Shown here one piece after another: positions 28,152-33,694 of a stretch of DNA of 64,000 nucleotides. Below the pieces are notes generated by a model that ran no database searches, was not told the DNA's origin, and saw only the letters and a program-made list of their open reading frames with translations. The DNA lies in assembly GCF_027923765.1 (NCBI RefSeq), contig NZ_AP026709.1:615501-679500 (forward strand), in the 5' to 3' direction. Source of the DNA: Pseudodesulfovibrio nedwellii (lineage in GTDB: Bacteria; Desulfobacterota; Desulfovibrionia; Desulfovibrionales; Desulfovibrionaceae). Position 1 is the first letter of the stretch. Each line of letters opens with the position of its first letter. Made by a program: the position numbers and the translations under genes.

Positions 28152-29426
28152 TTACGCTTTGGGGTTCCAAGTTTCCCGAAAGAAATCATCAGGCCACATC
28201 AGTACATCCGGCTCACCGGCCAAAAGTTGTTTCTTGGCCTCTTCAGGGATGGGCATTTGGAATTTGACAAAAGCTGTATACATGCCGGCCATGTCGATAT
28301 CACCCACCAGGACATAGCCCACCAAGTGGTCTTTTTGAAATACCAGTTTGCGGTAGCTCTTTTTCTTTTTGTCCAAAGTAATGGAAGCCGTATAGGACTC
28401 GTCATCTTCCGGCGGATTAACCGTCCCAACCGAAATAGTTGGCAGGCCATAGAACGAGATAGAGTTCATGGCTAAGGACCCTTTGAACTCGATGTCTGTG
28501 CCAGTCATGTTTTTACCGGCGCAGAAGCCTTGATTATATGCGTTTGTCCAGATGGGGATGACCCGATCGTCACCGAATAGCAAATCTTTGGCTTGAGCTA
28601 CATCGCCCGCCGCGAATATGCCGTCGGCACTGGTGCGCATATGGTCATCTACATGAATGCCTCGGTCCACTTCGATACCAGCGCTTTTTGCCAGCCCGTA
28701 GTTGGGGACAACACCGATGGCAATGACGACCACGTCGGTCTGCAAGAAATCGCCGTCAGTCAGATGGACACCTTTGAGCTTGCCGTCTGCATCTCGTTGA
28801 ATTTCCTTGGCAGAAACGCCGCAGCGAACGTTGAGACCGACTTCAGCAAGCCGTGAACCAGCCAGCGAAGCTGCGTTTTCATCAAACGCAAGACTCAATA
28901 TGCGGGGAGACAGTTCCAGAATGGTGACGTCAACACCACGATCAAACAGGGATTCACCGGCTTTCAGGCCAATAAGTCCACCACCGATGACAACCGCCCT
29001 TTTTATTTCCTTGGCTTTGGAAATAAGCGTCTGGGCGTGTTTCAGATTGGTGAAGTTATATACGTCGGTACCATCAGATCCCGGAATGGGAGGTGTAAAA
29101 GGGATACCGCCTGTGGCGATAAGCAGATTTTCGAATTCAATAGTCTCGCCTTTGTTCGTGGTTACGGTTTTGGCTTTGGTATCAATGCCGGTGACTGTTG
29201 TGCCAAGCTTGAGGGAGACTTTGCTTTTTTCATAGAATTCTTGAGGACGAAGAGCTAAACGGTCCGGACCGATCTTGCCTGCGAGCAGGTAGGAAATGAG
29301 AGGACGACCATATGCCGGGGAATCCTCGGCACCGATAATCAGGATCTCGTTGTCGGTATCTACCTTGCGGATACCCTCGATGGCACCGATGGAAGCGATG
29401 CCGTTACCAATGATGACGTATTTCAT
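28152..29426 (-). CDS. FAD/NAD(P)-dependent oxidoreductase of the glutamate synthase cluster
   Basis: A 424-residue pyridine nucleotide-disulfide oxidoreductase. The FAD motif is YVIIGNGIASIGAIEGIRK, the NAD motif AVVIGGGLIGLKAGESL, and the FAD-closing block is GIFAAGDVAQAKDLL. There is no redox-active Cys pair, so it resembles NADH oxidase or nitrite reductase-type modules. It probably passes electrons from NAD(P)H to the ferredoxin subunit, replacing GltD. It begins 9 bases after the ferredoxin gene. Confidence 0.88.
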   Translation of the reverse strand: MKYVIIGNGIASIGAIEGIRKVDTDNEILIIGAEDSPAYGRPLISYLLAGKIGPDRLALRPQEFYEKSKVSLKLGTTVTGIDTKAKTVTTNKGETIEFENLLIATGGIPFTPPIPGSDGTDVYNFTNLKHAQTLISKAKEIKRAVVIGGGLIGLKAGESLFDRGVDVTILELSPRILSLAFDENAASLAGSRLAEVGLNVRCGVSAKEIQRDADGKLKGVHLTDGDFLQTDVVVIAIGVVPNYGLAKSAGIEVDRGIHVDDHMRTSADGIFAAGDVAQAKDLLFGDDRVIPIWTNAYNQGFCAGKNMTGTDIEFKGSLAMNSISFYGLPTISVGTVNPPEDDESYTASITLDKKKKSYRKLVFQKDHLVGYVLVGDIDMAGMYTAFVKFQMPIPEEAKKQLLAGEPDVLMWPDDFFRETWNPKA

Positions 29427-29435
29427 GGTCGCTTC

Positions 29436-29882
29436 CTACCTTTCCTCGAATTTCAAGGCCTGATTGGGACATGCCTGCACACAGGCAGGACCTTCTTCAC
29501 GCCCTTCGCACAGGTCACATTTGACGATTTTGCTTTCCGTGGGGTGTCTGCGAATGGCTCCGTAAGGACATGCCATCAGGCAGGACCAGCAGCCGACGCA
29601 TTTATTCCGATCATATACAGTGCGTCCGGTCTCAGGGTCTTTGTATAAACCACCGGAAATACAGGCGGCTACACAAGACGGCTCGTCACAATGACGGCAG
29701 CTGATGGCAACACAAGTGTCACCTTTTTCAAAGACCTTTTTGCAAGGAGACAAGCCGTCTTTGCTCCGCTCTTCACGGTAGGCGACAATCAGATCTTTGG
29801 ATTTGGAATGCGCAGTGATGCAGGCCAACTCGCAGAGGTGGCAGCCAATACAGTAATCTTTATCCGGATAGACTCTTTTCAT
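29436..29882 (-). CDS. Polyferredoxin-like 4Fe-4S electron-transfer subunit
   Basis: A 148-residue protein with sixteen cysteines arranged for four 4Fe-4S clusters: CIGCHLCELAC, CRHCDEPSCVAAC, CVGCWSCLMACP and CDLCEGREEGPACVQACP. This is the HycB/DMSO reductase iron-sulfur type. Its place between the FMN subunit and the flavoprotein suggests it carries electrons within the split glutamate synthase. A GGAGG-like Shine-Dalgarno sequence precedes the ATG. Confidence 0.92.
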   Translation of the reverse strand: MKRVYPDKDYCIGCHLCELACITAHSKSKDLIVAYREERSKDGLSPCKKVFEKGDTCVAISCRHCDEPSCVAACISGGLYKDPETGRTVYDRNKCVGCWSCLMACPYGAIRRHPTESKIVKCDLCEGREEGPACVQACPNQALKFEER

Positions 29883-29894
29883 GGTGTCCTCCGC

Positions 29895-31553
29895 TTAACG
29901 CCCGGCATGCTTGATGCCGAGAATGTCGAGTTCAGTGTCGGAAAGACCTACACCGCGAAGCTTATCGCGGTTGCCGCGCAGGGATTCAATGGAGTTCAAC
30001 CCCATGCCGCCAAGCATTTCTTCAATTTCATGACCCCAGGCCCGAATCAGATTGGTCAATTTCTTGGCCGCAATATCCGGGTTCTGACGTTTGGACAATT
30101 TGGGATCGTTGGTAGCTATGCCCCATGGGCATTTGCCAGTGTAACAACGGCCGCAAATGGTACAGCCTACAGCGATCAAGGTCGCGGTGCCGATGTAAAC
30201 GGCGTCAGCACCAAGGGCGATAGCCTTAACAACATCACCGGAGCACCTGATACCGCCTGCCGCAACGATAGAGACATTGTTGCGAATTCCTTCATCACGC
30301 AGGCGTTGATCTACCTGTGCTAACGCCAGTTCGATGGGAATACCAACGTTGTCGCGAATCATTGCCGGGGCCGCGCCTGTTCCACCACGCATGCCGTCAA
30401 CTGTGATGATGTCCGCGCCCGCCCTGGCAATACCAGAGGCGATGGCCGCAACATTATGAACAGCGGCAATTTTAACGGAAACTGGAACCTTATATTCAGA
30501 GGCCTCCTTCAGCGCGTAAATGAGCTGAAGCAGATCTTCGATGGAATAGATATCGTGATGCGGTGCCGGAGAAATTGCATCTGAACCGATGGGGACCATT
30601 CTCGTTTCTGACACCATGTCATTAATCTTTTCACCAGGCAGATGGCCGCCGATACCAGGTTTTGCGCCCTGCCCTACTTTGATTTCGATACCTGCACCGG
30701 CTTTGAGATAATCAAGATGCACGCCGAAACGGCCGGACGCTACCTGCACGATGGTATTTTTGCCATATTTGTATAAAGACTTGTGCAAGCCTCCTTCGCC
30801 CGTATTGTAGGCTGTGCCGGTTGCTGTGGCGGCACGAGCCATTGCACGGTGAAGGTTGAAGTTGATAGCACCGAAGCTCATGGCAGCGAACATGATTGGT
30901 ATATCGAGTTCAAGCTGCGGTGTAAGTTTGGTGTTCAGCTTGGGTTTGCCGGTCTTTTTATCTGTTGTAATATTCAATTTTCTGGGCTTCGCGCCAAGAA
31001 ATGTTTTTAGTTCCATAGGCTCACGCAGTGGGTCAATGGACGGGTTGGTGACCTGACTGGCGTCGAGCAACATGCGATCCCAGTATACGGGAATATCTAC
31101 GGGTGACCCCATTCCAGCCAGCAGAACGCCACCTGTGTCAGCCTGTTTATATATATTCTGTAAGAATACGGGGCGCCACAGATTGTTGGTTCTGAAGTCA
31201 GAAGGCTTGTTAACGATGTTCAGGGCAGCTGTGGGGCACAAAGCCTCACAACGGTGACAGCCTATGCACTTGGTGTTGTCGTGCATAACTTTCTGTCGGG
31301 CTTCATCCCAATAATGGGCTTCATACGAACACTGACGGACGCACACCTTGCAATTTATGCACAGGTCTTTGTCCCGTTCAATACAAAACTCATGGTAGTT
31401 TTTGTTGATGGGCTGAAAAAGCAAGACTGGTACCTCTTTACGTTTGTTGCCAAAAAAGTCATCTCGCATCCAAGATGTTTGGAGCTCGGCTTTAAATTTT
31501 TCACAATTCGGGGAATATCGAGAGTCCTCCGAAGGAAAAATAGAAAACCACAA
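29895..31553 (-). CDS. Glutamate synthase FMN-domain subunit with N-terminal ferredoxin module
   Basis: Corresponds to GltB domain 2, where glutamate forms from 2-oxoglutarate and ammonia. An N-terminal module with two 4Fe-4S motifs (CINCKVCVRQC, CIGCHRCEALCP) precedes the FMN barrel (PIMFAAMSFGAIN, GEGGLHKSLYKYG, GQGAKPGIGGHLPGEKI, TVDGMRGGTGAAPAM). The 3Fe-4S cysteines are in GCTICGRCYTGKCPWG. The start is uncertain. The TTG at 31553 has AGGA nine bases upstream and reads as plausible protein, while the first ATG, at 31469, has no Shine-Dalgarno sequence. This is the first gene of the cluster. Confidence 0.92.
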   Translation of the reverse strand: MWFSIFPSEDSRYSPNCEKFKAELQTSWMRDDFFGNKRKEVPVLLFQPINKNYHEFCIERDKDLCINCKVCVRQCSYEAHYWDEARQKVMHDNTKCIGCHRCEALCPTAALNIVNKPSDFRTNNLWRPVFLQNIYKQADTGGVLLAGMGSPVDIPVYWDRMLLDASQVTNPSIDPLREPMELKTFLGAKPRKLNITTDKKTGKPKLNTKLTPQLELDIPIMFAAMSFGAINFNLHRAMARAATATGTAYNTGEGGLHKSLYKYGKNTIVQVASGRFGVHLDYLKAGAGIEIKVGQGAKPGIGGHLPGEKINDMVSETRMVPIGSDAISPAPHHDIYSIEDLLQLIYALKEASEYKVPVSVKIAAVHNVAAIASGIARAGADIITVDGMRGGTGAAPAMIRDNVGIPIELALAQVDQRLRDEGIRNNVSIVAAGGIRCSGDVVKAIALGADAVYIGTATLIAVGCTICGRCYTGKCPWGIATNDPKLSKRQNPDIAAKKLTNLIRAWGHEIEEMLGGMGLNSIESLRGNRDKLRGVGLSDTELDILGIKHAGR

Positions 31554-31700: not shown

Positions 31701-31730
31701 TTGACTTTGCGAGTGCCTCAACGTAAGAAT
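31701..31730 (+). promoter_or_regulatory. Candidate promoter for the Phe leader and symporter
   Basis: TTGACT at 31701-31706 with a weak -10 (TAAGAA at 17 bases or AAGAAT at 18 bases). A start about seven bases downstream would coincide with the leader ATG at 31737, making it leaderless. Otherwise transcription starts further upstream and TAAG serves as the ribosome-binding site. I cannot decide between these. Confidence 0.4.
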
Positions 31731-31736
31731 TGATTT

Positions 31737-31826
31737 ATGAACACGTACCCAAACCGCTTTAGCTTCTTTTTCTTTTTTAGCTTCCGCTTTTTTAGAAGCG
31801 CCTGCGGTCTTGGGGTGTATGTGTAA
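31737..31826 (+). CDS. Phenylalanine-rich leader peptide
   Basis: A 29-codon frame with ATG start and TAA stop. Codons 8 to 19 read FSFFFFFSFRFF: nine Phe codons of twelve, with both TTT and TTC used. This composition is that of the PheL and PheM leader peptides of enterobacteria, in which ribosome stalling at Phe codons senses charged phenylalanine tRNA. It is too short to be a normal protein and is followed by alternative RNA hairpins and a terminator. TAAG nine bases upstream could be its ribosome-binding site. The opposite strand has a 65-codon Lys/Glu/Ala-rich frame that I consider its shadow. Confidence 0.8.
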   Translation: MNTYPNRFSFFFFFSFRFFRSACGLGVYV

Positions 31827-31889
31827 CAACTAATTATTACATGACATCCACAACAAGGGCCGTAGGCGATAAGCTTACGGCCCTTTTCT
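31747..31889 (+). promoter_or_regulatory. Phe-type transcription attenuator (segments 1 to 4)
   Basis: Segment 1 (31747-31757, ACCCAAACCGC) pairs with segment 2 (31804-31816) over 11 base pairs with two single-base bulges. Segment 2 (31799-31811) can instead pair with segment 3 (31856-31868) over 13 consecutive pairs, three of them G-U. Segment 3 (31855-31867, AAGGGCCGTAGGC) pairs with segment 4 (31873-31885) over 13 base pairs with a GATAA loop, followed by TTCTATT: an intrinsic terminator. Segment 1 ends where the Phe run begins, so a ribosome stalled there would mask it, free segment 2 to hold segment 3, and allow read-through into the symporter genes. The leader stop (31824) lies 8 bases after segment 2, so a finishing ribosome would favour termination. 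Confidence 0.8.
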
Positions 31890-31939
31890 ATTGTGCCGCA
31901 AGCTTGATGCTACGGTCGAAACAACGAGGGGCATCCGTT

Positions 31940-32086
31940 ATGATGTTGGGTTTCGGGAGTGTTGAAATTGCATTGGCGTTTTGGTTAAGCATTGGTGCGA
32001 CGCTTTTGTGTGTAGTTTACGGAATTGTGAATTGGAACAATTCTGGCGATCCCACGACGACTGTTGAATCCGGGGAGGATAAGTAG
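31940..32086 (+). CDS. Symporter small accessory protein
   Basis: A 48-residue protein with one transmembrane helix (VEIALAFWLSIGATLLCVVYG) and a short charged tail. It matches the small subunits that lie directly before sodium:solute symporters in many bacteria. GAGGGG eight bases before the first ATG supports the start at 31940; the next ATG (31943) is possible. The symporter ATG follows the stop without any gap, so the pair is co-translated. It lies 50 bases after the attenuator terminator. Confidence 0.85.
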   Translation: MMLGFGSVEIALAFWLSIGATLLCVVYGIVNWNNSGDPTTTVESGEDK

Positions 32087-33694
32087 ATGGAAGGCAAACT
32101 CCTCGGAATTATTATCTATTTATGTGTCATATTTTATCTGGGGTATCGAGCCTGGAAAAACACAAAACAATCCACGGATTATATGCTTGCTGGCCGTGGC
32201 ATGAATCCTTTCGTCCTTGCCATGTCTTACGGAGCGACTTTTGTCTCAACTTCAGCCATCATTGGCTTTGGTGGAGTGTCCGGCATGTTTGGTATGTCAC
32301 TGCTTTGGCTCACCTTTTTGACGATTTTTGTGGGAATCTTTATCGCCATGGTCTTTTTTGGCAAACGTACACGGCGCATGGGGTTGGCTCTTGATTCTCA
32401 CACCTTTCCTGAACTCTTGGGAAGACGCTATAAGTCAAAATTCATTCAACAATTCTCAGGTGTTGTCATATTTGTTTTTATTCCGGTATACGCTGCCGCT
32501 GTTCTTATCGGTATTTGTCGGATGCTTGAGGTGGCATTTCCCGCTGTGAGTTATGGAGCATGGTTGCTTATCGTGACGGCGGTTGTCGCCATGTATGTCA
32601 TTACCGGTGGCCTTAAGGCCGTTATGTATACGGATGCCTTCCAAGGCACGATTATGGCGGTAATGATGCTTATTTTGATCGTCACCACCTACTCACTTCT
32701 CGGCGGTGTGACCGAAGCGCATCAGGCATTGACCGATATGATCAATCTGGTGCCTACCAAATTACAACAAGGTGGACTTGTCGGTTGGACAACGGGACCG
32801 CACTTGCAGTCTCCAATTGGTCTGACCATCTATACTACTATTATATATGGTGTCGGTATTGGTGTTTTGGCGCAGCCACAGCTGGCCATTCGATTCATGA
32901 CTGTACCGTCTGACCGCGAGTTAAACCGAGCTGTTGCCATCGGCGGTGTCTTCATTCTTTTGATGACCGGTGTCGCATTTCTTGCGGGCGCATTGTCCAA
33001 TGTTGTTTTCTATAAGGAGTTCGGCAAGATATCTATTGCCATGGCTGGCGGTAATTTTGATAAAATTATTCCTCTTTATATCGACAAGATTATGCCGGGT
33101 TGGTTTTCAGGCCTTTTCCTTGTCGCCATGTTTGCGGCAGCTATGTCCACCATGAGCTCCCAGTATCATGTAGGCGGCACCTCGCTATCCCGTGATTTTT
33201 TGGAACAGCACGTATCCATTGGCAATGGTGATTCTTCAATGAAACTTAATCGTTTGGGAGTGACTGTAGCCGTTATCGCCACCCTGATCTGGGCGTGGCT
33301 CCTGCCCGGTGGAGTTATTGCGCGTGCCACGGCCTTTTTCTTTGGTCTGTGCGCAGCATCTTTCTTGCCAATTTATGTCCTAGGCTTGTACTGGAAAGGC
33401 ATGACTAAAATTGGAGCCAAAATATCCATGGTCGGCGGTTTCGTCTTCTCCATGTTCTGGCTTTTGTTCATTCACCTCAAGGAAGCCGCACCAATTGGAT
33501 TGTGTCAGGCTTTGACCGGACAGGTGACCTTGGTGGCAAACACGTCAAAAGGTTCATGGATTTGGTTGCTTCAATGGGTTGACCCCAATGTTGTCGCCCT
33601 GCCCGTTTCGTTAGCTTTGGCAGTCGGCATAAGTCTTGCCACCCGACGAATGGAACAAAAACATCTTGATCTCTGCTGGGACGGTCTGTGCTAA
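32087..33694 (+). CDS. Sodium:solute symporter family transporter, predicted aromatic amino acid uptake
   Basis: A 535-residue integral membrane protein with about thirteen transmembrane helices and the LeuT-type SSS fold. Family features include YMLAGRGMNPFVLAMSYGATFVS-like N-terminal region (helix 1 and the sodium site), MYVITGGLKAVMYTDAFQG and MFAAAMSTMSSQYHVGGTSL. The family carries very diverse substrates (proline, pantothenate, acetate, sugars), so sequence alone does not give the cargo. The Phe attenuator immediately upstream predicts phenylalanine or a related compound; this is inference from regulation. GGGGAGG precedes the ATG. Confidence 0.9.
   Translation: MEGKLLGIIIYLCVIFYLGYRAWKNTKQSTDYMLAGRGMNPFVLAMSYGATFVSTSAIIGFGGVSGMFGMSLLWLTFLTIFVGIFIAMVFFGKRTRRMGLALDSHTFPELLGRRYKSKFIQQFSGVVIFVFIPVYAAAVLIGICRMLEVAFPAVSYGAWLLIVTAVVAMYVITGGLKAVMYTDAFQGTIMAVMMLILIVTTYSLLGGVTEAHQALTDMINLVPTKLQQGGLVGWTTGPHLQSPIGLTIYTTIIYGVGIGVLAQPQLAIRFMTVPSDRELNRAVAIGGVFILLMTGVAFLAGALSNVVFYKEFGKISIAMAGGNFDKIIPLYIDKIMPGWFSGLFLVAMFAAAMSTMSSQYHVGGTSLSRDFLEQHVSIGNGDSSMKLNRLGVTVAVIATLIWAWLLPGGVIARATAFFFGLCAASFLPIYVLGLYWKGMTKIGAKISMVGGFVFSMFWLLFIHLKEAAPIGLCQALTGQVTLVANTSKGSWIWLLQWVDPNVVALPVSLALAVGISLATRRMEQKHLDLCWDGLC

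Follow-up and report, generated by a model that had tools for sequence, protein, structure and literature searches.

What does a short open reading frame crowded with phenylalanine codons do upstream of a sodium:solute symporter (SSF) gene in Pseudodesulfovibrio nedwellii? The locus lies in a 64,000-nucleotide stretch of DNA, which we analysed as a whole (the window), from a genome that consists of a single contig of 3.76 Mb. The order in the window is leader ORF, antiterminator, terminator, small accessory gene and SSF symporter. We consider it very likely that this arrangement is a classical ribosome-mediated transcription attenuator, which senses charged tRNA-Phe and controls the accessory gene together with the symporter. 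The features on which this reading is built are the following:

31701..31706, plus strand: -35 element TTGACT, 36 nt before the leader ATG (promoter-like scan)
31725..31730, plus strand: -10-like element AAGAAT after an 18-nt spacer, ending 6 nt before the ATG
31737..31826, plus strand: leader peptide ORF, 29 codons with 9 Phe (translation; conserved in relatives)
31748..31766, plus strand: segment 1, which pairs with 31795-31814 (fold)
31758..31793, plus strand: Phe codon run, codons 8-19, the sensor (translation, footprint scan)
31799..31811, plus strand: segment 2, the 5' arm of the antiterminator (fold, covariation)
31813..31818, plus strand: 5' arm of the inner antiterminator helix, which pairs with 31844-31849 (fold)
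31844..31849, plus strand: 3' arm of the inner antiterminator helix (fold)
31855..31868, plus strand: segment 3, common to antiterminator and terminator (folds, covariation)
31873..31885, plus strand: segment 4, the 3' arm of the terminator (fold, covariation)
31884..31889, plus strand: T-rich tail of the intrinsic terminator (sequence)
31940..32086, plus strand: symporter small accessory protein, start at 31940 or 31943 (NF045580, 53.6 bits, cut-off 35)
32087..33694, plus strand: sodium:solute symporter (SSF, PF00474), 535 aa, the regulated gene (171.3 bits, cut-off 22.8)

Divergent from the leader and upstream of it (28152-31553, minus strand) is a cluster encoding a glutamate-synthase-domain protein, a ferredoxin-like protein and a pyridine-nucleotide oxidoreductase. 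A search of the window against Rfam release 15 gave no match at or above the gathering score.

Translation of 31737-31826 yields MNTYPNRFSFFFFFSFRFFRSACGLGVYV, with phenylalanine at codons 8, 10-14, 16, 18 and 19. The accessory gene has its own Shine-Dalgarno sequence, GAGGGG, at 31926-31931. A longer ORF at 31841-32086 was rejected as the accessory gene, being too long and overlapping the terminator; NF045580 matches it only from residue 35, which places the start of the protein at 31940 or 31943. Read directly from the sequence, the antiterminator 2:3 joins 31799-31811 with 31856-31868 in 13 pairs, three of them G-U. The computed fold contains 12 of these pairs plus the inner helix (31813-31818/31844-31849) and has an energy of -33.1 kcal/mol (z -4.9, none of 200 shuffles as good). 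By eye, the inner pairing is similar in many relatives, e.g. AUCGGU/ACCGAU in low-GC genomes of genus g21. The terminator 3:4 (31855-31885) has 13 pairs and a loop of 5, followed by T-rich sequence, and the fragment 31835-31893 folds at -25.0 (z -6.6, 0/200 shuffles as stable). An earlier, sequence-only reading of this DNA had described most of this anatomy. Its 29-codon leader with nine Phe in codons 8-19, its 13-bp antiterminator with three G-U pairs, its 13-bp terminator with T run and its downstream pair of transporter and small subunit are all borne out, the last by PF00474 and NF045580 above their cut-offs. Its claim that 2:3 and 3:4 exclude each other also holds, as segment 3 takes part in both by folding and by covariation. 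For 1:2 it had proposed 11 bp with two bulges; the partners are the same (CCCAA/ACCGC with GCGGU/UUGGG, and GCUUC with GAAGC) and the pair count differs a little, the pairing folding as 10 + 6 pairs.

The antiterminator was folded in 58 leader rows, on stretches excised by motif, which favours them; the median z was -4.4 (range -2.4 to -6.5), and in no row did more than 5 of 200 shuffles reach the same stability. Covariation was assessed on an alignment of 44 rows (A2). Here 86.9% of the cells of 2:3 are paired, compared with 34.6-41.3% when the helix is slid, and six pairs have changed on both sides, in 28 cells. For 3:4, 91.4% of cells are paired against 23.4-55.9% when slid, and eight pairs have changed on both sides, in 48 cells. 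Out of 500 shuffles, those reaching the observed value for 2:3 numbered 0 for cells paired, 3 for both-side pairs, 1 for such cells, 30 for further pair types and 1 for the covariation score; the corresponding numbers for 3:4 were 0, 30, 0, 418 and 0. The further pair types were reached by 418 shuffles and thus give the terminator no support. Both helices covary, and some of the shuffle controls on pair counts are not clearly beaten.

The position of the helices relative to the codon run was analysed by sliding a ribosome along the leader, with a footprint that we set at 16 nt upstream and 13 nt downstream of the A-site codon. In the window, 2:3 is allowed with the A-site at codons 2-19, blocked at codons 20-28 and at 0.02 at codon 29; by a stricter measure the last permissive codon is 18. 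The last 2:3-permissive position falls on the last Phe codons, in keeping with the earlier suggestion that the spacing suits attenuation. Phe, Tyr and mixed leaders behave alike: in 94 of 102 the last codon that permits the antiterminator is at most two codons from the last aromatic codon, and in eight this geometry is missed (the set holds 104 leaders, two rows of which were not parsed). The leader stop lies 13 nt past the end of segment 2. With the footprint used, a ribosome standing there masks no more than the 3' half of this segment, and 2:3 can still form (0.89). The trp attenuator differs in this respect; there, a ribosome at the leader stop does not let 2:3 form.

A pure equilibrium account of the switch was rejected. 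Once the RNA is complete, 3:4 is favoured wherever the ribosome stands; as long as segment 4 has not emerged, 2:3 is favoured, even with no ribosome present. Thermodynamics by itself thus leaves the outcome undecided, and the switch must be kinetic. This account is based on folding at successive RNA lengths rather than on kinetic simulation. In such folds of the growing RNA, with no ribosome or with one at the stop, upstream bases keep segment 2 paired up to about 31864, whereas with a ribosome at Phe 12 the 2:3 helix already begins at 31860. For termination with the ribosome at the stop, this upstream pairing of segment 2 is the sole argument. We propose that the decision is kinetic and that 1:2 re-forming behind the ribosome, besides masking at the stop, may secure termination.

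The order of events would then be as follows. RNA polymerase would start at the leader AUG or a few bases from it, and a ribosome would load on the leaderless end. When charged tRNA-Phe is low, the ribosome would stall within codons 8-19, covering segment 1 and leaving segment 2 free. Segment 2 would pair with segment 3 as it emerges, the 3:4 terminator would be prevented and the symporter genes would be transcribed. With phenylalanine plentiful, the ribosome would proceed over segment 2 (codons 20-29), or depart and allow 1:2 to re-form; with segment 2 masked or held in 1:2, 3:4 would form and transcription would stop near 31889.

The element is conserved with the gene it precedes. A symporter ortholog (E <= 1e-100) is present in 32 of 36 Pseudodesulfovibrio genomes. 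A Phe leader stands before 28 of the 30 genus loci listed, and the other two (L029 and L031) end too soon upstream; one of the 28 (L005) is from the same species as the window, and in one relative of the genus the symporter is 100% identical. For a search independent of the codons we used R1, a covariance model that spans segments 2-4, leaves out the Phe codons and was trained on 44 of the 58 rows. Two genomes (G003 and G010) carry a Phe leader and an R1 match before one symporter copy each (L262 and L261), and the second copy of G010 (L260) has neither. Counted by genome, a Phe leader precedes at least one ortholog in 30 of 30 genus genomes with upstream DNA present. Relatives were also where the sequence-only reading could have failed, and there the stems covary, and close relatives retain both the Phe run and the alternative pairings.

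Symporter matches at E <= 1e-120 were found in 49 of 199 Desulfovibrionaceae genomes (34 outside the genus). Among these 34, 25 have a Phe leader followed by a terminator upstream of one or more copies, comprising 12/12 genomes with a match in g7 (probably Maridesulfovibrio), 3/3 in g13 and 10/10 in g21. The remaining nine, from eight genera, have no such leader in the 600 bases upstream of the ortholog and no R1 match on the strand of the gene (best 24.8 bits, antisense). Control by this element is therefore not universal for the transporter family.

In g21, eight genomes have two symporter matches. Six of them carry a Phe leader before copy one (e.g. FFFAFFGFRGIQACG) and a Tyr leader before copy two (YFYAYYGYRVIKTCG), each with its own terminator; in G160 both copies have Phe leaders, and in G055 copy two lacks its own leader. 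In a tree of 41 rows the Tyr copies form a single group (support 94/98), corresponding to one change, and adjoin the Phe copies of the same genomes within a 20-row clade of 13 Phe copies, 6 Tyr copies and 1 without leader. The simplest reading would be one duplication in the g21 lineage plus one change of the codon run. In A2, all five Tyr rows have A-U in place of G-C at one pair of the 2:3 core (columns 6 and 86). Ahead of the Tyr-leader symporter, L085, L087, L088 and L091 have TATCGAA/TTCGATA-like motifs (e.g. tatcgaacttgaca), which overlap or adjoin the promoter-like hexamer and are perhaps a repressor site.

Of all the observations, these tandem copies hint most strongly that aromatic amino acids may be the cargo of the transporters and that the substrate can be read from the codon run. 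No substrate model reaches its cut-off for the symporter, the nearest named families, all below, being those for proline and pantothenate. Solved structures include only distant SSF relatives (best E 7.9e-17) with no substrate indicated, and the named homologs among the best 120 of 6293 have only generic symporter names. Judged from its leader, the symporter probably imports phenylalanine, and the paralog with the Tyr leader would take up tyrosine. Alternatively, the attenuator might be real and the symporter import a precursor or relative of phenylalanine, such as phenylacetate, phenylpyruvate or another aromatic acid. SSF proteins carry very different solutes and some anaerobes make phenylalanine from arylacetates, and no substrate model reaches its cut-off here. 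We regard this as unlikely, as amino-acid uptake is the simplest explanation of tandem paralogs with one Phe and one Tyr leader and the nearest NCBIfam model, although far below its cut-off (192.4 bits, cut-off 515.5), is the proline symporter PutP (TIGR02121). Uptake of phenylalanine itself is our preferred reading.

The RNA element is not confined to symporters. R1 finds three strong sites in the host genome, the window site (E 1.1e-18), G000:C1:3477616-3477722 (9.0e-10) and G000:C1:1021094-1021179 (9.8e-9); the next match is at 8.3e-5. Both other sites precede a gene for 2-amino-3,7-dideoxy-D-threo-hept-6-ulosonate (ADTH) synthase, which opens the alternative route to dehydroquinate. The leader at 3477616-3477722 (L158) has the mixed run FSNFTFWYWY and heads a set of aromatic genes in which the ORFs tested encode ADTH synthase, DHQ synthase II, prephenate dehydratase, EPSP synthase, trpE and trpD; one 276-aa ORF in the run had no match at 1e-40. 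The leader at 1021094-1021179 (L079) has Phe and one Tyr (RFFFFFSFYF), and the next ORFs tested behind its ADTH synthase are not aromatic-pathway genes. The host genome accordingly has one ADTH synthase under a Phe leader and another, with a Phe/Tyr/Trp leader, at the head of an aromatic supraoperon, somewhat as in E. coli, whose DAHP synthases differ in their regulation. The two Pseudodesulfovibrio genomes without a symporter ortholog that we looked at, G012 and G028, have two R1 matches among those listed, compared with three or four in the others, and the one match examined from each precedes ADTH synthase.

At E <= 1e-5, R1 matches occur in 162 of 199 genomes of the family (35 of 44 genera) and in 250 of 297 genomes of the class, including five further families of the order; some of the matches weaker than 1e-7 will be false. 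We chose 50 of the R1 matches listed by hand for spread over genera, one symporter copy (L173) among them. An aromatic-rich leader, with at least five aromatic codons in a 12-codon window, was found at all 50, compared with 0 of 27 weak matches from the own genome, three of which reach four aromatics, and 2.75% of 4000 random positions; for matches and controls alike, the leader was taken to be the candidate ORF with the highest content of aromatic codons. As the window element is kept in the genus relatives examined and R1 leads to aromatic leaders outside its own training set in 50/50 cases, it is more than chance. At least 47 of the 50 precede ADTH synthase, judged by the protein start GKxxRxER; L173 precedes the symporter, and L165 and L170 were left unassigned by this motif because another frame was taken.

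Leaders before ADTH synthase have pure-Phe or mixed Phe/Tyr/Trp runs. Five genomes with two such leaders (G000, G031, G077, G094 and G198) have one that is mixed and one that is pure or nearly pure Phe. G197 has a mixed leader (L210; L245 is likewise a mixed leader before ADTH synthase) and a Tyr-rich one with SYYYYG (L223). The latter, AGSYYYYGL at G197:C117:40551-40651, also precedes ADTH synthase, which suggests a Tyr-controlled isozyme beside the mixed-leader one. Among 20 further loci examined, L224, L230, L231 and L233 (R1 E 1.1e-7 to 6.6e-6) are without an aromatic-rich leader. L232 is the opposite strand of the G031 symporter match. After this examination the 'fourth' R1 matches of G004, G015 and G031 were rejected as new members. 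L222 (G053:C4:85728-85818) has an R1 match and a leader ORF with only WW before an ORF with a TrpE-like start, and is perhaps a Trp member. Overall, this is one family of RNA elements: the RNA part is conserved, and the codon run varies with the downstream gene. The earlier reading of a Phe attenuator is supported and was, if anything, too narrow, given the same element before ADTH-synthase genes and a Tyr version before the tandem paralog.

Nascent-peptide arrest, known from TnaC and the erm leaders, would place the sensor elsewhere, with the C-terminal part of the leader, RSACGLGV, stalling the ribosome itself, with or without a ligand. The peptide ACGLGV is indeed well kept in the genus and present in many aro leaders. 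We nevertheless rejected this explanation as very improbable: RSACGLGV is coded by segment 2, whose reading frame differs between clades while the RNA is kept, and the sensor codons (F, Y or F/Y/W) change with the gene behind. The reading frame through segment 2 in 55 symporter leaders is frame 1 for 43, frame 0 for nine, all of them from g7, and frame 2 for two, L032 and L033, with one leader unmatched by the motif; among 49 aro leaders the frames 1/0/2 count 39/2/4, with 4 unmatched. Frame 0 gives SPVVWRC and similar peptides (Maridesulfovibrio-type), and frame 2 gives SLRSDG and SLWLEG (L032, L033). Comparison of the frames indicates that segment 2 is conserved as RNA and not as peptide, and we return to the attenuator that senses charged tRNA-Phe.

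Where this attenuator's transcript begins was addressed by a promoter-like scan. It gives four sites against a shuffle mean of 3.4, so such sites are no commoner than in shuffles, and an alternative -10-like hexamer, TAAGAA, is present at 31724-31729 with a spacer of 17. We also analysed a set of 104 leaders, from which three near-duplicate rows (L066, L069 and L074) were omitted. A TTGACA-like hexamer (at least 5/6) starts at -35 to -38 of the ATG in 83/104, or 89/104 when the outer ATG is used for six Tyr leaders that were counted from the inner ATG; from the outer ATG their hexamer is at -36 or -37. The best promoter-like pair includes a TTGACA-like hexamer, at any position, in 100/104 upstream stretches and in 19.8% of shuffled stretches; in 81 leaders the end of its -10-like hexamer falls 5-10 nt upstream of the ATG. 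Shine-Dalgarno sequences of five bases precede 11 of 104 leaders as against 66 of 74 downstream genes; for four bases the counts are 26/104 and 72/74. As the -10-like element of the window lies so near the ATG (6 nt), we predict a leaderless or almost leaderless mRNA that starts at the AUG or within a few bases of it. The leaderless start would be a conserved geometric feature of the family. Neshat et al. are said to have described C. glutamicum attenuators as leaderless in 2014.

A short, nearly leaderless transcript of about 150 nt, as predicted here, could also serve chiefly as a trans-acting RNA or peptide, with attenuation secondary. The precedent is S. meliloti trpL, whose attenuator transcript starts with the ATG of the leader ORF and whose RNA and peptide are reported to have further functions in trans (PMC7298713); it differs from the present family in coding for Trp rather than Phe/Tyr and in its target, a biosynthesis gene. 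We give this possibility little credence, since in the cases examined the element stands directly upstream of an aromatic-pathway or symporter gene.

An ordinary intrinsic terminator beside a chance T-rich stretch, without regulation, was rejected as least probable of all: T-rich stretches are indeed common, a five-Phe-codon pattern having 23 matches in the host genome and the reversed control pattern 26, but codons, spacing and both alternative helices are conserved, a Tyr version exists, and the second and third copies in the genome precede aromatic-biosynthesis genes.

The preferred reading, attenuation by a ribosome that senses charged tRNA-Phe, has well-known counterparts. Enterobacterial pheA and pheST have a Phe-rich leader peptide, mutually exclusive antiterminator and terminator, and sensing of charged tRNA-Phe. 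The window element resembles them in its Phe-rich leader and in its exclusive antiterminator and intrinsic terminator. It differs in its target, a symporter instead of biosynthesis or tRNA-synthetase genes, and in its start, which is predicted to be leaderless. In Desulfovibrio vulgaris, a predicted attenuator from the Merino database was listed before the supraoperon aroA'-aroB'-aroQ-pheA-aroF-tyrA-[trp] in 2005 (PMC1173090, Table 7); for this attenuator the available text of that source gives no leader peptide, codons, homology to other attenuators or transporter. The gene order is similar to that of L158 in the host genome, and by analogy the D. vulgaris attenuator very probably represents the aro branch of the present family. 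C. glutamicum aroF has a leader with Phe-Tyr-Phe (PMC4046766). It shares with the family the aromatic codons before the first aromatic-pathway enzyme, but belongs to another phylum, precedes a DAHP rather than an ADTH synthase and involves no transporter. The uORFC-13-1 motif of Acholeplasma aroF combines a Phe-coding uORF with a following terminator (PMC8632094); it differs in lineage and gene and is described there as having 'at least one' Phe codon, not a long run.

In a literature search at the level of titles and abstracts, with most subscription journals outside it, we found no attenuator before such a symporter and no Tyr version, nor anything on an SSF phenylalanine transporter, on the accessory protein by name, or on classical attenuation joining phenylalanine, tyrosine and a transporter. 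The sequence-only reading had called the system undescribed; within the literature searched this stands for the symporter, and for the aro operon of D. vulgaris there is the attenuator listed in 2005 (PMC1173090). The mechanism is known; by this search, the target, the recoding and the spread are new.

For the order Desulfovibrionales as a whole we lean towards one homologous, re-codable attenuator, in which the RNA logic would be fixed and the codon run would name the amino acid that is sensed. Upstream of the complete aromatic operon the run would be Phe/Tyr/Trp together, and additional ADTH-synthase isozymes would have Phe alone or Tyr alone. SSF symporters would have Phe, or Tyr where a tandem duplicate had been recoded. 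Read in this way, the codon run would label the substrate, these symporters would become the first of the sodium:solute type with phenylalanine and with tyrosine as substrates, and the leaderless mRNA that carries the sensor ORF would have its start fixed by the promoter. The leader codon run would offer a testable route, from sequence alone, to the substrates of orphan transporters and isozymes. The Tyr leaders appear to be a natural case of sensor re-specification after gene duplication, with the codons exchanged and the RNA switch kept, and aromatic attenuation would extend across an order whose members reach dehydroquinate by the alternative (ADTH) route.
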